DNA of 64,000 nt from Eublepharis macularius (Eukaryota > Chordata > Lepidosauria > Squamata > Eublepharidae). Position numbers and translations under genes: made by a program. Shown piece after piece: positions 2,113 to 61,400 of this stretch. The first letter of the stretch is position 1, and the number at the start of each line of letters is the position of its first letter. The notes under the pieces are model-generated. The model saw nothing but the letters and a program-made list of their open reading frames with translations. It did not search any database and was not told the origin of the DNA. The stretch is from assembly GCF_028583425.1 (NCBI RefSeq), contig NC_072791.1, positions 198,996,311-199,060,310 of the forward strand, read 5' to 3'.

Positions 2113-3283
2113 TATGATAACTACAGAGTAAAATATTCTGTAGGATGTAGGACATAATTGCATTACCAAGTACATAAATTACATGACTTACATGACTTAC
2201 TAAATAAAATAGCAATTCCCCTCCAACACTACTTACTGTATTTACGCCCCAAAGAAGACAGTCTTGAATTTAAGATGCTGCTGCCCGGTCTCTCTGCCTG
2301 TGACTCTCTCTGGCTGCTCCAGTCCTGCTAAGAGCCCACTTTCCTGCCAAATCCCAGGGGCTGCTCCAGAGTCCCTCCCCTCTCTCTACAAACACTGCAG
2401 CAGAGATATATGAGATGGCCCCTGATCAGTTGGGTCACACGACCCAGGTGATAGGTGGGGGGAAGGCCATGTTAGGCTTGCCAGTCCCCCAGTCCAGCCC
2501 TGCCACCTCTCACATGGCCAGTGGAAAGAAAAGTGAGATAACATGTTGATGGGGACAAAGCGGGTCATGACAGGTCACACTGTTGCACTGGGGGCTGATT
2601 GAGTAAAAATTGCCCCCAAATTTAGTGCCTCCAGCACAATCCATTACTTCTGCTTCCCGTCGCGATGGCATGACTGTCCCCCACAAACTTCCATCCCCAC
2701 TTGCACCCCAGGGGATCTGGCAACCCTAGGTCATGTGTCCCCACTAATTTGCTGGGTCCCAGGCATGGCAAGCCCCAACCACTCAGAGTATCTGTTACAT
2801 ACTCAAATTGAAGATACACACTCACACACAAACCACTGTAGAGAGGTAAAAATATTTGAAAATGTCATCTTGCTTTCAAGTCAATACAGTAATGTTTGGA
2901 TACATCACCATCTAGGTAAAAAGGAAGCAAAAGTGAAAAAGACCTGCTGAAGTAAATGTCATGTATTTTGGTGGCCATCAAGATCAAGCCATTTTTATTT
3001 TTTATAGGAAAAAGTCTTTATTTAAAAATAAAACTGATTACCAGCCTCCTAACTAGGTGATCATTTCATGATAATTCTTGCATCTGAGAAACAGTTTTGC
3101 TGACAAGTACCTTTATAGGTTCTTTGCTAGCAGCCTGTCAACATTATTTGCCAACCATTCTAAATTCAAACTATTAGTCAATATTTTGTTGGTAGGAACA
3201 GGCACTTCTTCAGGAAAAAATTACAAATAAACAGGAATCTGTTAACACTTTGGCCTTGGGAATCAGGATAATACTGGACTAGG
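2113..3283. other. Unassigned stretch
   Basis: I recognise no gene. The part at 2280-2850 is moderately GC-rich and may be an old repeat. The rest is AT-rich. Confidence 0.4.
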
Positions 3284-3497
3284 TAGGTTTGCCAACTACA
3301 GCTTATGAAATTCCTGGAAATTTGGGAGTGATGTCTATGGAGTGCAGAATTTGGGGAGGGAGGAAGTCTAGTCAGGATATTTTTCCAAGACTCTACGGTA
3401 TATCATAGATCTGCCCTCTAAAGCTGATCTCTATAGTCTGGAGATCAGATATAATTCTGGGAGATCTCCAGGCTCCGCCTGGTGGTTGGCAACCCTA
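3284..3497 (+). mobile_element. hAT-like MITE, 'gggttgccaac' family (family B)
   Basis: It starts TAGGTTTGCCAAC and ends GGTTGGCAACCCTA. Internal landmarks of the family are present: CCTGGAAATTTGGG, GATCTCCAGGC and a decayed 'tataatgccatagag' block. Copies at 6284 and 55785 have perfect 8-bp TSDs, which types the family as hAT-like. This copy is diverged and its TSD is not clear. Confidence 0.7.
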
Positions 3498-11363: not shown

Positions 11364-11530
11364 TAACCAACTTTACTGTAGCATAAGCTTTCGAGAACCA
11401 CAGTTTTCTTCTCATCTGACAAAGAGAACTGTGGTTCTCGAAAGCTTCTGCTACAATAAAGTTAGTTAGTCTTAAAGGTGCTAGAGTCTTTACTATTTTG
11501 CTACTACAGACTAACACAGCTAACTCCTCT
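11364..11530. repeat. Inverted-repeat core with hammerhead-like motif
   Basis: This right part of the split Penelope-type element contains 'agctttcgagaaccacag' facing 'ctgtggttctcgaaagct'. On the plus strand CTGACAA...GAGAAC...GTTCTCGAAAGC...GCTA parallels the hammerhead-like motif at 44759, but the core CTGATGA has decayed to CTGACAA. Confidence 0.55.
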
Positions 11531-11610
11531 GGATCCTCTTCCAACAGAATTATTAAGCACATCAAGGAACAAAGCCTGCCAACTTTTATCCCTGGTTCTA
11601 CAAGGTGTAA

Positions 11611-13902: not shown

Positions 13903-15320
13903 CCTTCCTCTCCCTGTATTATTTTCCCAACCTGAAATGACCCTGGGGAGTTGTTATTAGCTCTGTTGGGGAAATTTATCTGGGGAGCTGCAAATAACAT
14001 TCATTCACCCCGTTTACATTATCTCTGAAATGGTTGCTGGAATTTGACTATGGTGCATTCATTCATGGCTGTAGCATCAACATTTACTTGAATTAGCAAT
14101 CACGGATCAGACACTAGTGCTAGAGCTCACCTACTGTCTCAAACAGAACGTTTTTCAATGGAATCTCTTTACATGTTCAATTGAATTATTAAGTATTAAA
14201 CAATCAAATGTTGAAACATCGTTAACTGATCCAACACAAGCAGATTTTGTAGTCACTGGTATTCCAGGAAACAGTGTTCTTGATACCATTGCCCAGAATC
14301 AACATGCACACCACCTATTACATGTTCATTTTCAGTTGGTTCAACCAGAGGGTCACCTTTCTTCCCAGCTGTACCAGGAACAAGTTCTAATGACTGTTGA
14401 GGTCAGCTGGACCATTAAGGAATATATTATTACTAGGTAGACATTTCTCAGCATAAGTTTAAGGCAAACATGCTCTTCCCATAGCATATTACTTTCCCTC
14501 TTGAAGATGGGAGAACTTACAAAACAGGAAAAACACCATTTCTAGCACCACAATGAACCTGGAAGCTAGGCAGGTCAAGCCTTCTACTTTAGCTTTAGGG
14601 GGAAACCTCCCGTCGATTCACTCGTTCTACTGTCTACAGCTTCTAAGGCTGGCAGGGAAAAAATGGGTGGAAATGCGTAGGTGCACTGGTGTTGCACCAG
14701 CACTACACTTCACTTCTAGCAAAAATTGCACATGATGTCATTATATTGGGACAACTCTAAGATTCACCCCAAGCACTGTGGTTTAGCCATAGAACATTTG
14801 GGGGTGGGAATTTGGGGCTGAAGCAGGAGCAGTGAGGCAGAGAATTTGTACTCCACTGACAGAAGTCCTTCCAGCAGTGGAAATTTTCAGTGGAATCCAA
14901 GCTTGTGTATATCTGCCATTTCTCATAAGCACAGAAAAACCATGGAATCTAACACTGGCAACAGAATTCAACAGTATCATGCCTTTGATATTCAGAAAGC
15001 AGCAACGCTGCTAGGGAAGGGCTGCTGATTTACTATTTTCTTCTGAAAGCTCTTGACATTTGGGTCAAAGAACTTACAGCACATCCCTATAATTATTTCT
15101 TTGTGCAGAAAAAAACATTTACAACAGCATTGTACTCGCAAAGGCTGTTGTCTACAAGCATCCCAGAAAATCTCAAGCAAGCAAAGTTATTAATTGTGTC
15201 CTTTTAAAAAAATCACTTGACTTGTTCACGTGTTCTTTCTGCAAAAATGTCTGGACATTCAAAGGGCAGCTAGTTGCAATCTTTGAAAAGGTTGTAAAAT
15301 TCATTCTGCATTGACTGACA
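13903..15320. other. Unassigned stretch
   Basis: A 107-codon open frame at 14117-14440 (+) has no recognised domain and no splice or promoter context, so I do not call it a gene. I see no other structure. Confidence 0.4.
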
Positions 15321-15322
15321 TG

Positions 15323-15503
15323 GCCCTGGCTAGCCAGATCTTATCAGATCTCAGAAGCTAAGCAGGTTCATCCCTAGTTAGTACTTGGATGGGAGACCTT
15401 CAAGGAAGTCCAGTGTCACTAAGCAGAGGCAGGCAATGGAAAACCAGCTTTGTTCATCTCTTGCCTTGAAAACTCCAGCAGCTTGACAGTACTATACACA
15501 TAC
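15323..15503 (+). repeat. 5S-rRNA-derived SINE
   Basis: The head carries the 5S rRNA internal-promoter region in worn form: 'cagatctcagaagctaagc' followed by 'agttagtacttggatggga' and GACC. The tail continues 'aggcaggcaatggaaaacc' and 'agcagcttgacagtac'. The antisense copy at 59098 shows the same tail. Confidence 0.8.
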
Positions 15504-25231: not shown

Positions 25232-27350
25232 TTGAAGGCAAAAGTTAATATAGCCCCAACTCCCCACAAAATTGAGGGTCCAGTTAAAATGATTCCCCCA
25301 CTAAGACTCATGGACCCTTCTAGAATCCAAAATGCCTTGGGGGATTTTAAAATCCCAGGCACATGCCCTGTGGTGGCTGCTGTAGGAATGTGGAACACAA
25401 AGCTCCTTGAAGCCATAGACACCATTGCTCCTTATCGGCTGCTCCGGCCCTTGGGATGGACACCAGCGCCATGGTTCACCACGGAGCTGGCTGACTTAAA
25501 GAGGGTTGGAAGATGTTTAGAAAGGTGCTGGAGAAAAACTCATGCAGAAGCAGATAGAACATGCTACAGAACCCACTGGAGGACCTATGAAGCAGAAATG
25601 AAAGTGGCAAAGAAACGTTCTTTTTTGGCAACTATTGCGTTGGCTAGTTCATGACCATTCCAATTGTTTAAGATATCCAGATGCCTCCTAACCCCTAAAT
25701 CTGAACCTTCACAGTCCCAAGAACAGACAATTAACTGCAAGGCCTTTGCTAAGTTTTTTGCTGATAAAATAATTCGAATATGCTCTGATCTAGCTGCTAG
25801 CTGCAATGCAAGCGAGACAGAAGAAGAAATGCCAAATACATCATGCAGCTTATATTTGGACGGCTTTGAACCAATCACAATGACAGATCTTAACAAGATC
25901 TTGATGTCTATGAAAACCACTACTTGTGCGCTCGATCCTTGCCCATCCTGGCTGTTAACCTCAAGTAAGGACCACATAAGTGAGCTACTAAAGTCTATTG
26001 TAAATCAGTCACTAACTCAGGGCAGCTTTCCCTGACAGCTCAAACAGGCAGTTATCCATCCGCTACTTAAAAAACCATCCCTAGACAAAAATGATGTGTC
26101 CAATTATCGCCCAGTCTCTAATCTGCCCTTTCTGGGCAAAGTGATTGAGAGAGCAGTAGCCGACCAACTCCAGACCTTCTTGGATAACTCTAATGCTCTG
26201 GACCCTTTCCAATCAGGCTTCAGACCAGGGCATGGGACAGAGACAGCACTAGTAGCATTAGTGGATGATCTCCGTCTGAATATGGACAAGGGCCATGCCT
26301 CCTTACAGCTTCTATTGGATCTGTCTGCAGCCTTTGACACAATAGACCATGCCATCCTGTTGAGGCATTTAGAAACAGAAGTGGGCATCAAAGGATGTGC
26401 CCTGGACTGGTTTAAATCATTTCTCATGGAACAGACTCAAAGGATTGCTGTCGGAGATCAGCTATCTCCAGAATGGGAACTATCTTGTGGGGTTCCACAG
26501 CCTTTAGGAGAACTCATTCGCAGCTATGGAGTTGGATGTCATCAATATGCAGATGACATCCAACTCTATATCTCACTATCCAGGTCCCCACAGGATGCAG
26601 TGGAAATCTTAAATCGCTGCCTGACAGCCATGGTGAAATGGTTGAAAAACAATAAATTGAAATGGAACCCAGACAAGACTGATGCTTGTTGGGAAGGCAG
26701 AGATCTTGAAGGACATTGTACTCCCCACTTTTGATGGAGTTTGTCTGACCCTTGCAGAATCAGTTAAGAGCCTAGGGGTTATACTGGATCCAGCGTTATT
26801 ACTAGAAAAACAAGTTAAGGCAGCAGCAAAAAATGTTTTCCACAACCTCACTCTAGCCTGGAAGGTGGTTTCTTATCTTGACATGGCTGACCTGGCCACT
26901 TGGATCCATGCTATGGTAACATCAAGGCTTGACTATTGTAATGCTCTATGCACTGGCCTCCCATCTAAGTTAACTAGGAGCATCCAATTAGTGCAAAATG
27001 CTGCAGCTCGATTGTTATCAGGAGCGAGTTGGAGTATGAACATCACTCCAATCCTACAGTCGCTCCACTAGTTACCTATCGTTTACCGTGCTCAGTTCAA
27101 AGTATTAGTTATTACATACAAAGTTCTTCACGGCTTTAGTCTGGCATACCTACAGGACTGCCTCCCTCCCTATGTTCCTTCACGGCAGCTTCGCTTTTCT
27201 GAACAGGGTCTCCTGCAGGTGCCAGGCTGCACACAGGTGAAGTCAGCAGCAGCTTGTACACGGGCTTTCTCTGTGGTGGCCCCTATCCTGTGGAATGACC
27301 TGCCTGAGGAAGTCAGAAGAGCCCCCACTATCCTGGCTTTCCATAAATGA
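25232..27350 (+). pseudogene. L2-clade ORF2 remnant (reverse transcriptase)
   Basis: Successive frames give the region after the endonuclease ('AVGMWNTKLLEAIDTIAP'), then the RT: 'SNYRPVSNLPFLGKVIERAV', motif A 'LLDLSAAFDTIDHAILLRHL', and motif C 'HQYADDIQLYISLS' with YADD intact. Between 'ELSCGVPQ' and 'PLGELIRS' the usual G-S-x-L-x-P-x-L-F block is deleted. A frameshift near 26690 moves to the frame with 'VKSLGVILDPALLLEKQVKA' and 'IQLVQNAAARLL'. The copy is inactive. Family assignment rests on these motifs only. Confidence 0.82.
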
Positions 27351-42369: not shown

Positions 42370-43000
42370 CTCTTTCCTAAGAATATAATGAGCCCAGCTG
42401 GATCAGACCAATGGCCATCTAATCCAGCATCCCGTTTCCCAAAGTGGCCGACCATCCGAAGGCCCCATGCAAGAGCATAGAAATCAAAGCCTCTCAGTGA
42501 TCCTGTACCCACCCACCCCAAGTAGCATGTAGAGGTATACTCAGGGCTTTTTTTCTGGGAAAAGAGGTGGTGGAACTCAGTGGGTTGCCCTGGGAGAAAA
42601 TGGTCACATGGCTGGTGGCCCCGCCCCCTGTTCTCCAGACAGAGGGGAGTTGAGATTGCAATCTCAACTCCCCTCTGTCTGGAGATCAGGGGGCGGGGCC
42701 ACCAGCCATGTGACCATTTTCAAGAGGTTCCGGAACTCCGTTCCCCCGCATTCCCCCTGAAAAAAAGCTCTGGGTATACTCCTCCAGATCATGAATGTTC
42801 CACATAGCTACCAAGGCTAATGGCCAGTGATGGACCATAACAGCCAACAATTTCTCCCCTGTTAAAGCTGTCTAACTTAGCAGCCATCACCATATCCTGG
42901 GGCAATGAGTTCCACAAGGCAGTTGGTCGGGGTGAAAAAGTGTTTTCTTTTGTCTGCCCTGAATCTACTGGCAGGTCCATCTGCTTTCGTTGCTTCACAA
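42370..43000 (+). repeat. Old interspersed repeat split by a hAT MITE
   Basis: 'agcccagctggatcagacca', 'catctaatccagcatcccg', then, after the MITE, 'gttaaagctgtctaacttag' and 'ggggcaatgagttccacaag' are parts of a widespread amniote interspersed repeat whose name I will not guess. The Penelope element follows directly. Confidence 0.6.
42542..42772. mobile_element. hAT MITE, family C, copy 4
   Basis: CAGGGCTTTTTTTCTGGG and CTGAAAAAAAGCTCTG are the ends. GGTATACT is duplicated perfectly (42534-42541, 42773-42780). The interior is symmetrical around 'gagattgcaatctc'. Confidence 0.9.
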
Positions 43001-44440
43001 CCCAGTATCTCTGAGGCTGCAAAGGGCATTGGAGTACAATCCATTGACAACCTACCAGATGACACCATCCTAGCAACCATGGATGTGGAGGCCTTGTACA
43101 CCAATATCCCACATGCAGATGGATTGCAAGCCATACGGAATATTATCCCGGACAAAACCACAGCAAACCTCGCCACTGAACTTTGTCACTTCGTACTCAC
43201 TCACAATTACTTCGAATTTGGTGACAACTTATATCTACAGGTTTATGGCACAGCCATGGGCACACGCATGGCACCACAATATGCTAACATATTCATGGCG
43301 GACTTAGAGCAACGCTTCCTCAGCTCCCATCCACTGGAACCACTACTATACTTAAGATTCCTGGATGACATCTTCATCATTTGGACCCATGGGAAGGAAG
43401 CCCTTGAGAGATTTCATCAGGACTTCAATAACTTTCACCCTACTATCAACCTAAGCCTGGATCACTCTACACAACAGGTACACTTCCTGGACACCACTGT
43501 ACAACTACATAATGGACGAATAAATACCACCTTATACCGGAAACCAACAGACCGATACTCATATCTACATGCCTCCAGCTTCCACCCTAAACATACCACT
43601 CGGTCTATTGTCTACAGCCAAGCCTTACGTTACAACCGTATCTGCTCCAATGCTCTGGACCGAGACTCACACTTAAGAGATTTACAACAAGCATTTTTGG
43701 GACTACAGTACCCACCAAATGAAGTGAAGAAACAAATTAACAGGGCCAGACTAGTACCCAGAAACAGTCTGCTCCAGGACAAACCTAAAGGAACTAACAA
43801 CAGAACACCACTGGTTGTCACCTATAGCTCCCAGCTCAAACCCATCCAACGTATCATCAGTGAGCTACAACCCATCCTGGAAAATGATACCTCTCTCTCA
43901 GAAGCCCTGGGTGGAAGACCTTTCCTTGCCTACAGACAGCCCCCCAATTTTAAACGACTTCTCACTTACAATCATGAATCGGCCAGCAGAGTCACCAGCA
44001 CAGGGACCAGGCCCTGCAACAGACCCAGATGCCAGCTCTGCCCCTATATCTACCCAGGGAATACAATTACAGGACCCAATGGCATCAACTACACTGTCTC
44101 TGGCTCTTACAGCTGCTCATCCTCCAATCTGATATATGCCCTCATGTGCCAACAATGTCCTTCTGCTCTGTACATTGGACAAACCAGCCAACCTCTACGC
44201 AAAAGAATAAATGGACACAAATCTGACATTAGAAATGGAAACGTCCAAAAACCAGTGGGAGAACACTTCAATCTACCAGGACATTCCACCAAAGACTTAA
44301 AGGTCGCTGTGGTTCAACAGAAACCTTTCAAAAACAAAATCCAACGGGAGGCTGCTGAATTGGAATTCATATGCAAATTTGACTCTGTCAAGCGGGGACT
44401 GAATAGAGACTATGAATGGTTATCACATTACCACAGGTAA
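42905..44440 (+). CDS. Penelope-like reverse transcriptase with GIY-YIG endonuclease
   Basis: This 511-codon frame is uninterrupted. Penelope-like proteins copy their RNA at nicked chromosomal DNA. The RT part spans roughly residues 45-290: 'TMDVEALYTNIPH' (about 58-70), 'YGTAMGTRMAPQYANIFMAD' (114-133) and the catalytic 'YLRFLDDIFIIW' with FLDD at 152-155. A Cys cluster, CNRPRCQLC (371-379), precedes the GIY-YIG nuclease: 'LIYAL' (409-413), 'ALYIGQTSQPLRKR' (421-434) with its Arg residues, and 'GEHFNLPGH' (452-460) with a Glu. Full-length relatives are several hundred residues longer at the N-terminus, so this is a truncated protein. The first ~35 residues come from the upstream repeat, so the ATG is not the native start. 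The absence of stops suggests a young copy; protein expression is unproven. Confidence 0.88.
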   Translation: MSSTRQLVGVKKCFLLSALNLLAGPSAFVASQPSISEAAKGIGVQSIDNLPDDTILATMDVEALYTNIPHADGLQAIRNIIPDKTTANLATELCHFVLTHNYFEFGDNLYLQVYGTAMGTRMAPQYANIFMADLEQRFLSSHPLEPLLYLRFLDDIFIIWTHGKEALERFHQDFNNFHPTINLSLDHSTQQVHFLDTTVQLHNGRINTTLYRKPTDRYSYLHASSFHPKHTTRSIVYSQALRYNRICSNALDRDSHLRDLQQAFLGLQYPPNEVKKQINRARLVPRNSLLQDKPKGTNNRTPLVVTYSSQLKPIQRIISELQPILENDTSLSEALGGRPFLAYRQPPNFKRLLTYNHESASRVTSTGTRPCNRPRCQLCPYIYPGNTITGPNGINYTVSGSYSCSSSNLIYALMCQQCPSALYIGQTSQPLRKRINGHKSDIRNGNVQKPVGEHFNLPGHSTKDLKVAVVQQKPFKNKIQREAAELEFICKFDSVKRGLNRDYEWLSHYHR

Positions 44441-44880
44441 CAGATTCTCTTTACAGAGGCGTGATCTGGGGGAGCCCAGTGACGCCTGGTGTGGGCTTTC
44501 GGGGACCACAGTTCTCTTTGTCAGATGCAACTGGCAGGGAGAGCTGTGGTTACCGAAGGCTTATACTACATAGGAATTGGACACCTTCACTGCTACAAAC
44601 TGACTGCACACCAAAAGGAGATGTTTACATTTCCAAGCAAAGGAATGTTTTGATTGCCTCTATGCTAATTGCATTCTGCCTTCTTGTGATTTATGACCCC
44701 TCCCTTTTCTCTCTCTTTCCCCCTCCTCTTCTGTATCTGGCCAGTTTTGATCAGGCATCTGATGAAGAGAACTTGATTCTCGAAAGCTTATGCTATAATA
44801 AAATTGGTTAGTCTTAAAGGTGCTACTGGACTCTTTTTGATTTTGCTACTACAGACTAACACGGCTGACTCCTCAGGATC
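43010..44880 (+). mobile_element. Penelope-like retroelement, 5'-truncated
   Basis: The element has an open frame (to 44440) and a 3' part of about 440 bp ending 'ctactacagactaacacggc'. The 5' end is truncated just before the first conserved RT block. The left boundary is approximate, because the preceding 'gagttccacaag...' sequence belongs to another repeat. Sequences matching its 3' part occur at 8741/11364, 10107, 47039, 55684, 58840 and 63915. A family of short related elements is therefore present. Confidence 0.88.
44759..44795 (+). other. Hammerhead-ribozyme-like motif
   Basis: CTGATGA (44759-44765) is followed by stem II GAGAA/TTCTC around the loop CTTGA, then GAAA (44782-44785). A 3-bp stem III AGC/GCT closes on the loop TTAT, and A closes a CUA cleavage triplet (44793-44795). 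This order is the conserved core of hammerhead ribozymes, which are known from Penelope-like elements. Stem I is not obvious by eye. A second copy at 47420 shows compensatory change in stem II (AGAGC/GCTCT). Confidence 0.55.
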
Positions 44881-47038: not shown

Positions 47039-47511
47039 TTAGCTGTGTTAGTCTGTAGCAGGGCTTTTTTTCTGGGAAAAGAGATGGTGGAACTCAGTGG
47101 GTTGCCCTCAGAGAAAATGGTCACATGGCTGGTTGCCCCGCCCCCTGATCTCCAGACAGAGGGGAGTTGAGATTGCCCTCCGCGCTGCCGAGCGGCGTGG
47201 AGGGCAATCTCAACTCCCCTCTGTCTGGAGATCAGGGGGTGGGGCCACCAGCCATGTGACCATTTTCAAGAGGTTCCAGAACTCCATTCCACCATGTTCC
47301 AGCTGAAAAAAAGCCCTGGTCTGTAGTAGCAAAAGAGTAAAGAGTCCAGTAGCACCTTTAAGACTAACCAACTTTATTGTAGCATAAGCTTTCAAGAGCC
47401 ACATCTCTCTTTGTCAGATCTGATGAAAAGAGCTGTGGCTCTCGAAAGCTTATGCTACAATAAAGCTGGTTAGTCTTAAAGGTGCTACTGGACTCTTTTT
47501 GATTTTGCTAC
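47039..47511. mobile_element. Penelope-type palindromic element
   Basis: Inverted halves 'cagtagcacctttaagacta' and 'tagtcttaaaggtgctactg' surround inverted cores 'agctttcaagagccaca' and 'tgtggctctcgaaagct'. The 8-bp flanks CTCATAAG match perfectly. A hAT MITE sits in its left half. The right core has the hammerhead-like order CTGATGA-AGAGC/GCTCT-CGAAAGC-TTAT-GCTA starting at 47420. Confidence 0.8.
47059..47318. mobile_element. hAT MITE, family C, copy 5
   Basis: CAGGGCTTTTTTTCTGGG and CTGAAAAAAAGCCCTG are the ends. GTCTGTAG is duplicated perfectly (47051-47058, 47319-47326). It is the innermost of three nested insertions. Confidence 0.92.
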
Positions 47512-48814: not shown

Positions 48815-49016
48815 GAGCCAAGCCACAAGTGACACCTGACACAGGTTGGACACTTGTCTGCTTCCCTCAAGTTTTGATGGGAAATGTAGGCGTCCTGCTT
48901 TTACAGCTTGGCTCTCCATTACAGCTGCAAGACCAGGACGCCTACATTTCCCATCAAAACTTGAGGGAAGCAGACAAGTGTCCAACCTGTGTCAGGCGTC
49001 ACTTGTAGCTTGGCTC
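48815..49016. mobile_element. Harbinger-like MITE, family H, copy 2
   Basis: GAGCCAAGCCACAAGTGACA and CGTCACTTGTAGCTTGGCTC are the ends. TCA flanks both sides (48812-48814, 49017-49019). 'cttccctcaagttttgatgg' and its complement continue the palindrome. Confidence 0.88.
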
Positions 49017-58407: not shown

Positions 58408-61400
58408 GTACCGTGCCAGCTGTGGTGGGTTCCCAGTACAGTGACATTTCTGAGTGGATTTTTAGAATGAAACCATCAAGAGGTGACCTGCATATGGCCT
58501 TGATGCTACTTCTTACGCAGAGGCGTTTTCCCTTTAGAAACACCACATTGGGTGAAGTAGCCCTAAGGGAGTCTCTTGTAGGGTTAATAAGCAGGAATCG
58601 TGTGGCTTTTGAAAGACTTAAGAGGTTTAAGTCTAACATGAACATTTATAGTTTAGAATCCACTTTGCCAGGTTCCTGTAAAGTCCATGGAATCCTAAGC
58701 TAGAAAAAAATACCTTAAGATGTCTCAAGACTCCTGTTTATTTTTACTGCAATGGTCCAACATCCCTCTGGAATTATTTTTCTGGGGCTGTGATCCTGAA
58801 GCAAAGGAGAACAAGGAGTTTTAAGATAGTCTCTCTTAATGAGTATCTGACAAAGGGAGCTTTGACTATCAAAAGCTTATACCCTGACAATCTTGTTGGT
58901 CTTTTAAGGTGCTGTTGATTTGAATCTTGCTGTTCTACTGCAGACCAACATGGCTACCCACCCGGGTAATGAGTATTTTAGATCTTTCATGGGTTGTCAA
59001 GTTTATATATGATCTGTGAATTCCATCCATCAGACAGAGGAACCTTATTACTGTTTTCATTGTCCTAAGATAAAATTTAAAAAAGTATTTAATTAAGTGG
59101 TGTTGGTGGAAAGTGCTGTCAAGTCACAGGTGACTCATGGCAATCCCACAGGATTTTCAAGGCAGATATTCAGAAGCCTCTGCACACTGACCTTGGACTT
59201 CCTTGGTCGTCTCCTAACCAAGTATTAACCAGGGTCAACCCTGCTTAGTTTCTGAGAGGCTAGCCTGGGCCATCCAGGTCAGGGCATTTAATCAAGGCCC
59301 CCGATCTTGCCAAGAGTCCTTCACTCAGTTCAGCTTGTTCAGTATTTAAACAAATCAAAAATGGAAGTGAGTTCAGGGTTAACTGATGATGTAAATATGT
59401 TCTGAGAAATTGTACAAATGAGGAAGATTGTCTAGCTAACCTTTCCGTTTGAGGAAGAAAAAATGTGCAACTTTTTGTTATGCCCAGTCTAATGCAGCAT
59501 CAGTGAGAAAATGCTGCTCATAATGGTTTAATCTCTTCCCTCTTTTAATTGTTGCAATTAAAATATTGCATTTAAATCTCACATTCCTGATGAACACTGC
59601 ATGTAGCAGTAGCCAGTCTGTGGGAAGTAATATAATTTATATACAAATGTCAAGGGCACATGAACATAAACAGAACTGGTTTTTCCCATTGGTTGAAAGA
59701 GATTTTTTTGAAATTTAAGTTTCCCTGATTTTTATGATAATGGTAAAAAAATGCATTTCGTTAGTATAAAATTTGTAAAAAAAAATGCTTTTCTAGCAAC
59801 TTTTATTGTAACATTATTTCTCTTCACTCCAACTTGATTAGCTTGTACATCCATTTTAAATGTTTCCTGAACCAACTAAATAGAACACTGTGATTTATTT
59901 TAGGAAAGTACAACGTTCAAGAATGTTTGGACAACGCATTCCACGTCTCCAATTGCTTATCAAAGTGGAAAGATTTATTTTGACAATTATCGGTGCTGTG
60001 TGAGCAGGTAATTTTTTAAAAGAATATTTCTTTTTCTGAATTGCTTACACTGCAATCCTAAGCAAAGTTACTCCAGTCTAAGCTCATTGATTTCAATGGG
60101 GTTAGACTGGAGTAACACTGTTTAGGATTGCTCTGTTATTCTGCCAAACTTGTGAGCAGGAGTGTAAAATTAGCTGTGTAATCTCATATCAATAAAACTA
60201 TCTCATGTATACATATTTGTAGAATGGAGGCTTATAGAAATTAGCAAGGGGCTGAGCCATCTTCAAAAGTTGCAGTGTTTGGATGTTTTAATTTAAAAGC
60301 ATTAGAGGGGGTTATAATTATAAAATTAGGAATGGCGTATAAAAAAAATTTTTTTGCCCTCTCTCACAACACTGGGCTCAGTAAGGAAACTGATTAGGAG
60401 TAGATTCGAGACAGTCAAAGTAATTCTTAACACAATCCATAATTAACGTCTGTGCTGTGAGATACAGGGTTGACCTCTAGTTTAGATGGCATGGGAAAGA
60501 TTTAGTGAAATTAATAAAGAATGCCCCTTTAATTGTATACCAGTCACAATAACTACATAGAGCCTCCATATTCAGGGACTGTATACCTTTAAACAGCTGG
60601 TGCTGGGGACAAATAGTTGGGAAAGGCTGTTACATTGTGTTCGTCTCTTTGACTGTTGAAATAGCAGGGCCACAGCTGGAGAGGTTTTGCCAGGGGGAGC
60701 TCCCCATGCCACGGCCTGAGTGGTGGCAGAAGAGACACAAGAAGGCAGGGAGGAAGAGAGGGAGGCTGCAGTGTTGTAGGAAAGGATGAAAGGCTGTGCT
60801 ACGGCACTGAGGGAACAGACCGGGATGCTGTTTGCAAGAGGAATTGGTCATGATTGATAATAGTACTTAGAAAGACCTTTCAAATAACAGAAAGTGATAC
60901 ACTCGAATCCCTTTTTTCCTTAGTGTCACTCCTGAGCCAAGGATAATTTATCAAATGCCAGTGTGCCCTAAATCAGAAAAAATAGAAGATGCTTTATTAC
61001 TGGAATGCCCTGTGGTAAGGGTCTTTTGAACAAATCCACTCTGCTTGGTAAGGTCATAACTCTCTTCTGTTTGTGTGTGTGTTACGTAAAATGGAGGAAC
61101 GCACTCCTTTCAATTAGAAGTCTTACAAATGAAATAATCCCTGAGTAACACCTTTTGAGACAAAAATAGACAACGTCTTCAAAGTTCTGGCTTCAGCGAT
61201 TGTGTGTTTTTATATATACATACATACATATGAGAACCTGCCTGTGGTCTGTCACTGTGGAGACCGCACGGGACTGTGGAGTCTGAATAGATATATATAT
61301 AACCTTTTCTAGCAAATGAGGGCTCATTTGCAAAGCACAGTCCGATACCTACTTTGAGAATCCAAAAGGGCATCTGTGCTAGATTTGCTTTACTGTTCCC

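Follow-up and report, generated by a model that had tools for sequence, protein, structure and literature searches.

Minimal type I hammerhead ribozymes were reportedly described in Penelope-like elements by Cervera and de la Pena in 2014, and minimal Penelope hammerheads are said, after Lunse et al. (2017), to cleave as dimers. According to two reviews, the hammerheads of Penelope-like elements are of type I and have no helix III (PMC6155905, PMC7761336). For a squamate representative, the Poseidon element of Anolis carolinensis (PAc), cleavage occurred only when the element's protein was added, with the cut lying 26 bp after the start codon (PMC11167929). The same protein cuts and extends both strands, the tail lying between two reverse transcription start sites, and no start-site difference between the strands was observed; the study calls the insertion steps of Penelope-like elements yet to be validated (PMC11167929). 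In the Penelope elements of Adineta vaga, a tail is optionally found at one inverted end (PMC3846280).

The locus described here lies in a window of 64,000 nucleotides, the whole stretch of Eublepharis macularius DNA that was analyzed. On its plus strand, positions 44738-44811 very probably constitute a minimal (helix-III-less) type I hammerhead motif, as predicted from core letters, fold and genomic copies, in the 3′-terminal pseudo-LTR of a squamate Penelope-like retroelement. The kind is already known: the motif, whose core begins at 44759, joins the helix-III-less hammerheads of Penelope-like elements. Like those portrayed in PMC6155905 and PMC7761336, it has no real helix III, follows the type I order and exists in thousands of dispersed copies; it differs from the descriptions given there in having an additional base after A9 and a long distal section of stem I.

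The closest counterpart is PAc, likewise a squamate element with reverse transcriptase (RT), GIY-YIG endonuclease and a hammerhead in its pseudo-LTR (PMC11167929). PAc has a tail of 30-40 bp between its RT start sites, and its start region, which is AC-rich and lies 111-118 bp into the ORF, resembles the tail seen here. The ORF of PAc begins at stem II, whereas here no frame of at least 150 aa covers the motif and the ATG of CTGATGA meets a TGA four codons later. Unlike in PAc, arms are seen here head to head, and activity has been demonstrated for PAc, the present case being made from sequence and predicted fold. As in the Adineta vaga elements, we observe inverted pseudo-LTRs and head-to-head palindromes, and its 31-bp optional tail and 8-10 bp target duplications have comparable features here; the Adineta account reports few copies, in contrast with tens of thousands here, and leaves hammerheads unmentioned (PMC3846280). 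Metazoan retrozymes are also non-autonomous elements with type I hammerheads, yet they are described as direct tandem repeats of 150-450 bp (PMC7229834), whereas most of those found here are tailed palindromes flanked by target duplications.

The coding part of the host element occupies 43035-44437 (plus strand). Its open frame extends from 42881 to 44440, with element homology starting at 43035, and combines a reverse transcriptase (RVT_1, 4.9e-11) with a GIY-YIG endonuclease (7.7e-5; both Pfam), the single-frame pairing expected of a Penelope-like element. The closest protein match of the frame stands at 97%, with Eublepharis macularius (gecko) at 92% over 44% of the query and turtle proteins at 65-76% (named turtle matches with at least 80% coverage). 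Across 43035-44879, the element has 97.0% DNA identity to another element copy, and the window copy is therefore a 5′-truncated Penelope-like element with a long tail at its end. This 3′ terminal part, with the AC-rich tail CTACTACAGACTAACACGGC, covers 44812-44879 on the plus strand, as judged from the same homology and from the tail end classes described below. The copy at 44759 has no inverted arm, and its core starts 318 nt 3′ of the RT/GIY-YIG stop codon, in agreement with the original prediction of a hammerhead-like core downstream of a Penelope open frame.

Just 3′ of the stop codon, the plus strand encodes a very stable hairpin (44467-44589; minimum free energy [MFE] of -74.1 kcal/mol for the region 44460-44590), an equivalent of which is present in locus L009 (about 3190-3310; -69.3 kcal/mol). 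By arm similarity, this hairpin resembles two degenerate hammerhead arms placed head to head, with weak model matches at E values of 0.15 and 0.69. L009 and three further loci (L010, L011 and L012; C1 at 4.66, 5.01, 5.28 and 7.05 Mb for the four) represent one 3.17-kb insertion in four segmental duplications, and, having near-identical flanks, they were rejected as independent full-length copies.

All parts of the hammerhead lie on the plus strand, and those named in the original prediction, CTGATGA (44759-44765), GAGAA/TTCTC (44767-44771/44777-44781) and GAAA (44782-44785), are present in the right order. CTGATGA provides the catalytic core from C3 to A9, with T in free position 7, and is followed by an extra base at 44766 and by stem II at 44767-44781 (GAGAA, loop CTTGA, TTCTC). 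The segment GAAAGCTT at 44782-44789 then supplies G12, A13 and A14, A15.1, the helix III remnant, U16.1 and U17. Stem I encloses these parts in two sections: a proximal one in which GGCAT (44754-44758) pairs with ATGCT (44790-44794), and a distal one joining 44737-44749, including CCAGTTTT at 44741-44748, to 44799-44811, including AAAATTGG at 44800-44807. The extra base (A in 120 of 127 aligned rows, G in the other 7) counts against the hammerhead reading. An additional core nucleotide reportedly has a precedent in viroid hammerheads.

Stem I, called unclear in the original prediction, can be drawn from the computed structure. Folding of 44736-44812 gave an MFE of -23.5 kcal/mol (z -3.45), which none of 200 shuffled sequences equaled. 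In this structure, stem I has 13 bp in its distal and 5 bp (GGCAU/AUGCU) in its proximal section, separated by a 4 x 4 internal loop; stem II has 5 bp, and the core is open save for one isolated pair. Pair probabilities were 0.94-1.00 for the eight pairs of CCAGTTTT/AAAATTGG. The CUGANGA ... GAA core is thus found in the window copy, as in the exact genome matches, together with a five-pair stem II and a stem I that closes the core. A canonical helix III was not found in this copy, A15.1/U16.1 around GC being all that stands in its place. This is expected for the minimal Penelope class, which is marked by an absent helix III and a 3′ terminal pseudo-LTR position, both seen here. As helix III has shrunk to GAAAGCUU, the cut is expected at CUU^AUGC, that is, between 44789 and 44790; the triplet, CUU in the window copy, agrees with NUH, and is CUC in most copies of a second lineage and CUG in three rows of an alignment of both lineages (A2, 50 copies; see below).

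The original prediction had instead proposed a 3-bp stem III with a cut after the CUA triplet ending at 44795, in which case AGC/GCT with a TTAT loop would form stem III and the distal helix would be the whole of stem I. The letters of this arrangement are indeed present and near-invariant within the lineage of the window copy (lineage 1), and when six other lineage-1 representatives were folded, the AGC/GCU hairpin was the computed minimum in three (L110, L044, L092), the proximal stem I forming in the others (L116, L080, L070). In the window copy, however, it is a minor fold, with a pair probability of 0.13-0.14 versus 0.82-0.86 for the proximal stem I and a model structure scored at -11.0 versus -15.5 kcal/mol, a gap of 4.5 kcal/mol. 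Two of its three pairs are, moreover, broken in 21 and 19 of the 50 A2 copies, uncompensated, the GCT partner occurs in none of 24 lineage-2 copies, and published hammerheads of Penelope-like elements are described as having no helix III (PMC7761336). We therefore regard a cut after CUA as quite improbable. The corrected fold and cut site matter in practice, as a CUA-based assay would look in the wrong place.

Might the motif be a coincidence of short sequences? In the window, CTGATGA by itself is about as common as chance predicts (13 seen, 11.1 expected), but a descriptor combining core and stem II matched the window solely at 44759, against 7 matches in total over 200 dinucleotide-shuffled windows, and once stem I was also required, the one window match stood against 3 in the 200 shuffled windows. 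Genome counts, made over 2.24 Gb in 72 contigs and possibly lower bounds where repeats are concerned, settle the matter. The pattern CTGATGA...CGAAAGCTTATGCT has 9,142 exact matches and its CTGACGA version 19,047, together 28,189 in the host genome, with 4,714 for a CTGACAA version that has lost G8 and 41,158 occurrences of a 28-base tail; the reversed-pattern control was 0 for each of the four. With 9,142 matches versus none for the reversed pattern, chance is excluded, and we give it a negligible probability. Rfam 15 includes hammerhead models. The Rfam check suggested in the original prediction came out negative, with no hammerhead match at E values up to 10 in the whole window and five further loci, and scans of viral contigs found nothing.

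Two further hammerhead-bearing stretches of the window are palindromic, non-autonomous derivatives, in each of which two arms of hammerhead plus tail stand head to head. The element at 47326-47511 (model R1, 54.0 and 53.6 bits) has a plus-strand core CTGATGA at 47420-47426 and a minus-strand core CTGACAA, both arms having a damaged stem I. The RNA of this element folds into a single long hairpin (MFE -132.8 kcal/mol), within which formation of a ribozyme would be unlikely. Its stem II at 47420 reads AGAGC/GCTCT as originally reported, yet in a base-by-base alignment with 44759 this amounts to one compensated pair, the closing pair being A.C and stem I lost. The element at 11364-11535 (R1, 53.2 and 37.2 bits) contains the third copy of the original prediction, whose plus-strand core CTGACAA we read at 11416-11422, with G8 and stem I both lost. 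In such palindromic derivatives, the hammerhead motif is enclosed in a long hairpin and frequently disrupted at G8 or G12. The covariation claimed from the three window copies consequently comes down to one compensated stem II pair, with both comparison copies damaged, within palindromes and lacking an intact stem I, and we rejected it as evidence.

Covariation was instead sought among genomic copies. Lineage 1 was represented by 135 arms with distinct flanks, 127 of which were retained by similarity. A single stem II pair covaries in these 127 rows (A-T 79, G-T 32, G-C 13, A-C 1; Fisher p 5e-6, though the copies are related). Alignment A1, restricted to 21 lineage-1 copies with the distal stem I, contained one compensated pair, a value reached in 74 of 500 shuffles and hence not significant. 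Since lineage 1 alone falls short, a small number of changes that separate the lineages must carry the case. A second lineage, with the pattern CTGAAGAAGTGAGC...GCTCACGAAAGCTCATAC, has 2,726 genome copies in which stem II pair 2 is T-A, versus 134 with T.T (these two classes counted). Once it is included, the genome-wide check for covariation proposed in the original prediction turns out positive, and the broader claim of a hammerhead motif with compensatory change in a Penelope-like element is supported. The two lineages also differ in stem I, which is GTAT/ATAC in lineage 2 and GCAT/ATGC in lineage 1; the GTAT 5′ flank, absent from every search pattern, was found in 14 of 24 lineage-2 copies. 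Core position 7, the only free one in CUGANGA, differs as well, being C or T in lineage 1 and mostly A in lineage 2.

In A2, whose pattern demanded the core plus the extra A and which omits lineage-2 copies lacking AT[AG]C downstream of the core, 59 cells were changed on both sides, a count reached in none of 500 shuffles (mean 20.6), and five pairs had two-sided changes (19 of 500 shuffles as high). The fold pairs 82.5% of cells, compared with at most 45.5% when it is slid along the alignment; the count of further pair types was unexceptional (177 of 500 shuffles as high). Compensation is visible at stem II pair 2 (A-T 30, T-A 18) and pair 5 (A-T 23, G-C 23), and at pair 3 of the proximal stem I (C-G 28, T-A 15), the one clearly compensated pair of that stem. 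Among all 24 lineage-2 copies, with none left out, stem I pairs 1-4 are formed in 18, 17, 19 and 16, respectively, and all four pairs in 12. A decayed window copy at 58824-58899 (plus strand; R1, 31.1 bits), with a lineage-2 type stem I (GTAT/ATAC) and the core CTGACAA, is itself a row of A2. The compensated changes are probably few events between lineages inherited by many copies, and the shuffle figures therefore overstate the evidence; much of the A2 signal is, in addition, stem II, which the two competing folds have in common. As both the searches and A2 required the core, conservation of the core is not demonstrable from either. What emerges is one reptile genome in which a minimal ribozyme motif exists as two lineages, its stems compensated between them and its copies numbering in the tens of thousands.

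For a view of decay, 42 tail-anchored copies were sampled regardless of core state. The core was kept in 23, together with both stems in 18, and broken in 19, with G8 changed to A in 6 and G12 to A in 8. Among the 40 copies retained by similarity, core positions other than G8, G12 and N7 differ in 0-4 rows each. The best-kept stretch is not the core but AAAGCTTATGC, and core positions are preserved no better than those around them. G8 (in CTGACGA) and G12 (in TCTCGAAA) both belong to CpG dinucleotides, which makes methylation a likely driver of their loss; this would also explain CTGACAA at 11416.

This level of decay is relevant to the idea that the motif is a dead relic, a hammerhead of the past that a mobile repeat still carries, what matters now being the inverted-repeat character of the region (DNA hairpins or priming). 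A broken core in 19 of 42 copies and the stable hairpin of the palindrome at 47326 fit this idea, as does the report that in vitro insertion of the Anolis element is normal when its hammerhead is mutated (PMC11167929). Of the 55 arms that have a candidate target duplication, none begins at the predicted cut; five single arms in this group (L036, L100, L104, L120, L124) begin at the hammerhead's 5′ edge, between -5 and +4. Against it, stems I and II show compensated changes from one lineage to the other, which suggests that the source elements stayed foldable. Among 138 arms, moreover, one inner palindrome arm (in L115) starts precisely where the cut is predicted, and those in L057, L087, L122 and L135 start 4-5 bases before it; these starts are possibly the ends of cleaved RNA, or chance, and are too few to weigh much. 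On balance we consider a relic unlikely, though a good deal less so than a cut after CUA. The two-lineage copy set offers natural data for asking whether the source elements need the ribozyme.

Under the preferred reading as a minimal hammerhead, the RNA would form stem II, the catalytic core and a long stem I interrupted by an internal loop, and would be cut between U44789 and A44790. With AGCU as its only helix III, it would be expected to cleave poorly alone. The working form is probably a dimer, in which the self-complementary AGCU of two copies would build helix III, or alternatively an RNA held in place by the protein that the element encodes. Cleavage would presumably serve the element by trimming its multimeric or read-through transcripts.

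The palindromic derivatives also revealed a pattern in their ends. We defined head-to-head elements as adjacent minus/plus arms that both reach base 75 and start by base 25, neither running off the locus. From 132 adjacent minus/plus arm pairs, 79 failed these arm limits and 14 were duplicates, leaving 39 distinct elements in a sample (L001-L158 plus the window) in which most loci lie within the initial 21 Mb of a single contig and many were found via the hammerhead pattern. In 38 of the 39, one tail is long and the other short, the long arm ending at the AC-rich tail (about base 117-128) and the short one at a T-rich stretch (75-104). Two long ends were found in none of the 39, and the sole exception is the decayed window copy at 47326, with ends at 104 and 97. 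Eleven of the 39 were added later to test the pattern, and each of them conforms. Target duplications of at least 8 bp flank 28 of the 39, compared with 2.0% of mismatched flank pairs. Inverted terminal arms, an optional tail and target duplications, as expected of Penelope-like elements, are thus all seen in this set. In the literature on Penelope-like elements that we searched, we found no description of a strict one-long, one-short rule, which makes a simple genomic prediction on the insertion of these elements.

We tentatively suggest, at somewhat less than even confidence, that the two ends of each head-to-head insertion come from two different initiation events. If so, genomic copies would record that the element's enzyme uses two fixed start sites on the RNA in cutting and extending both strands. 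Palindromic hammerhead elements would then spread as units, with either strand usable as template.

As a separate observation, short tandem arrays of hammerhead units occur at L024 (C1:10495200-10496600; 52-bp spacing) and at C1:18104430-18104582 (58-bp spacing). Elsewhere in the window, near-perfect inverted repeats (CCAGACAGAGGGGAGTTGAGATTG...) at 42623-42694 and 47153-47227 give weak microRNA-model matches and resemble a small foldback element, and a mir-30-like hairpin on the minus strand (48877-48954), 0.5 bits below the Rfam cut-off, lies inside a strong inverted repeat. A 5S rRNA-like sequence at 15311-15424 (36.7 bits against an Rfam cut-off of 38) is perhaps a 5S-derived SINE, and an open frame at 26036-26734 resembles, judged by eye, a LINE reverse transcriptase.
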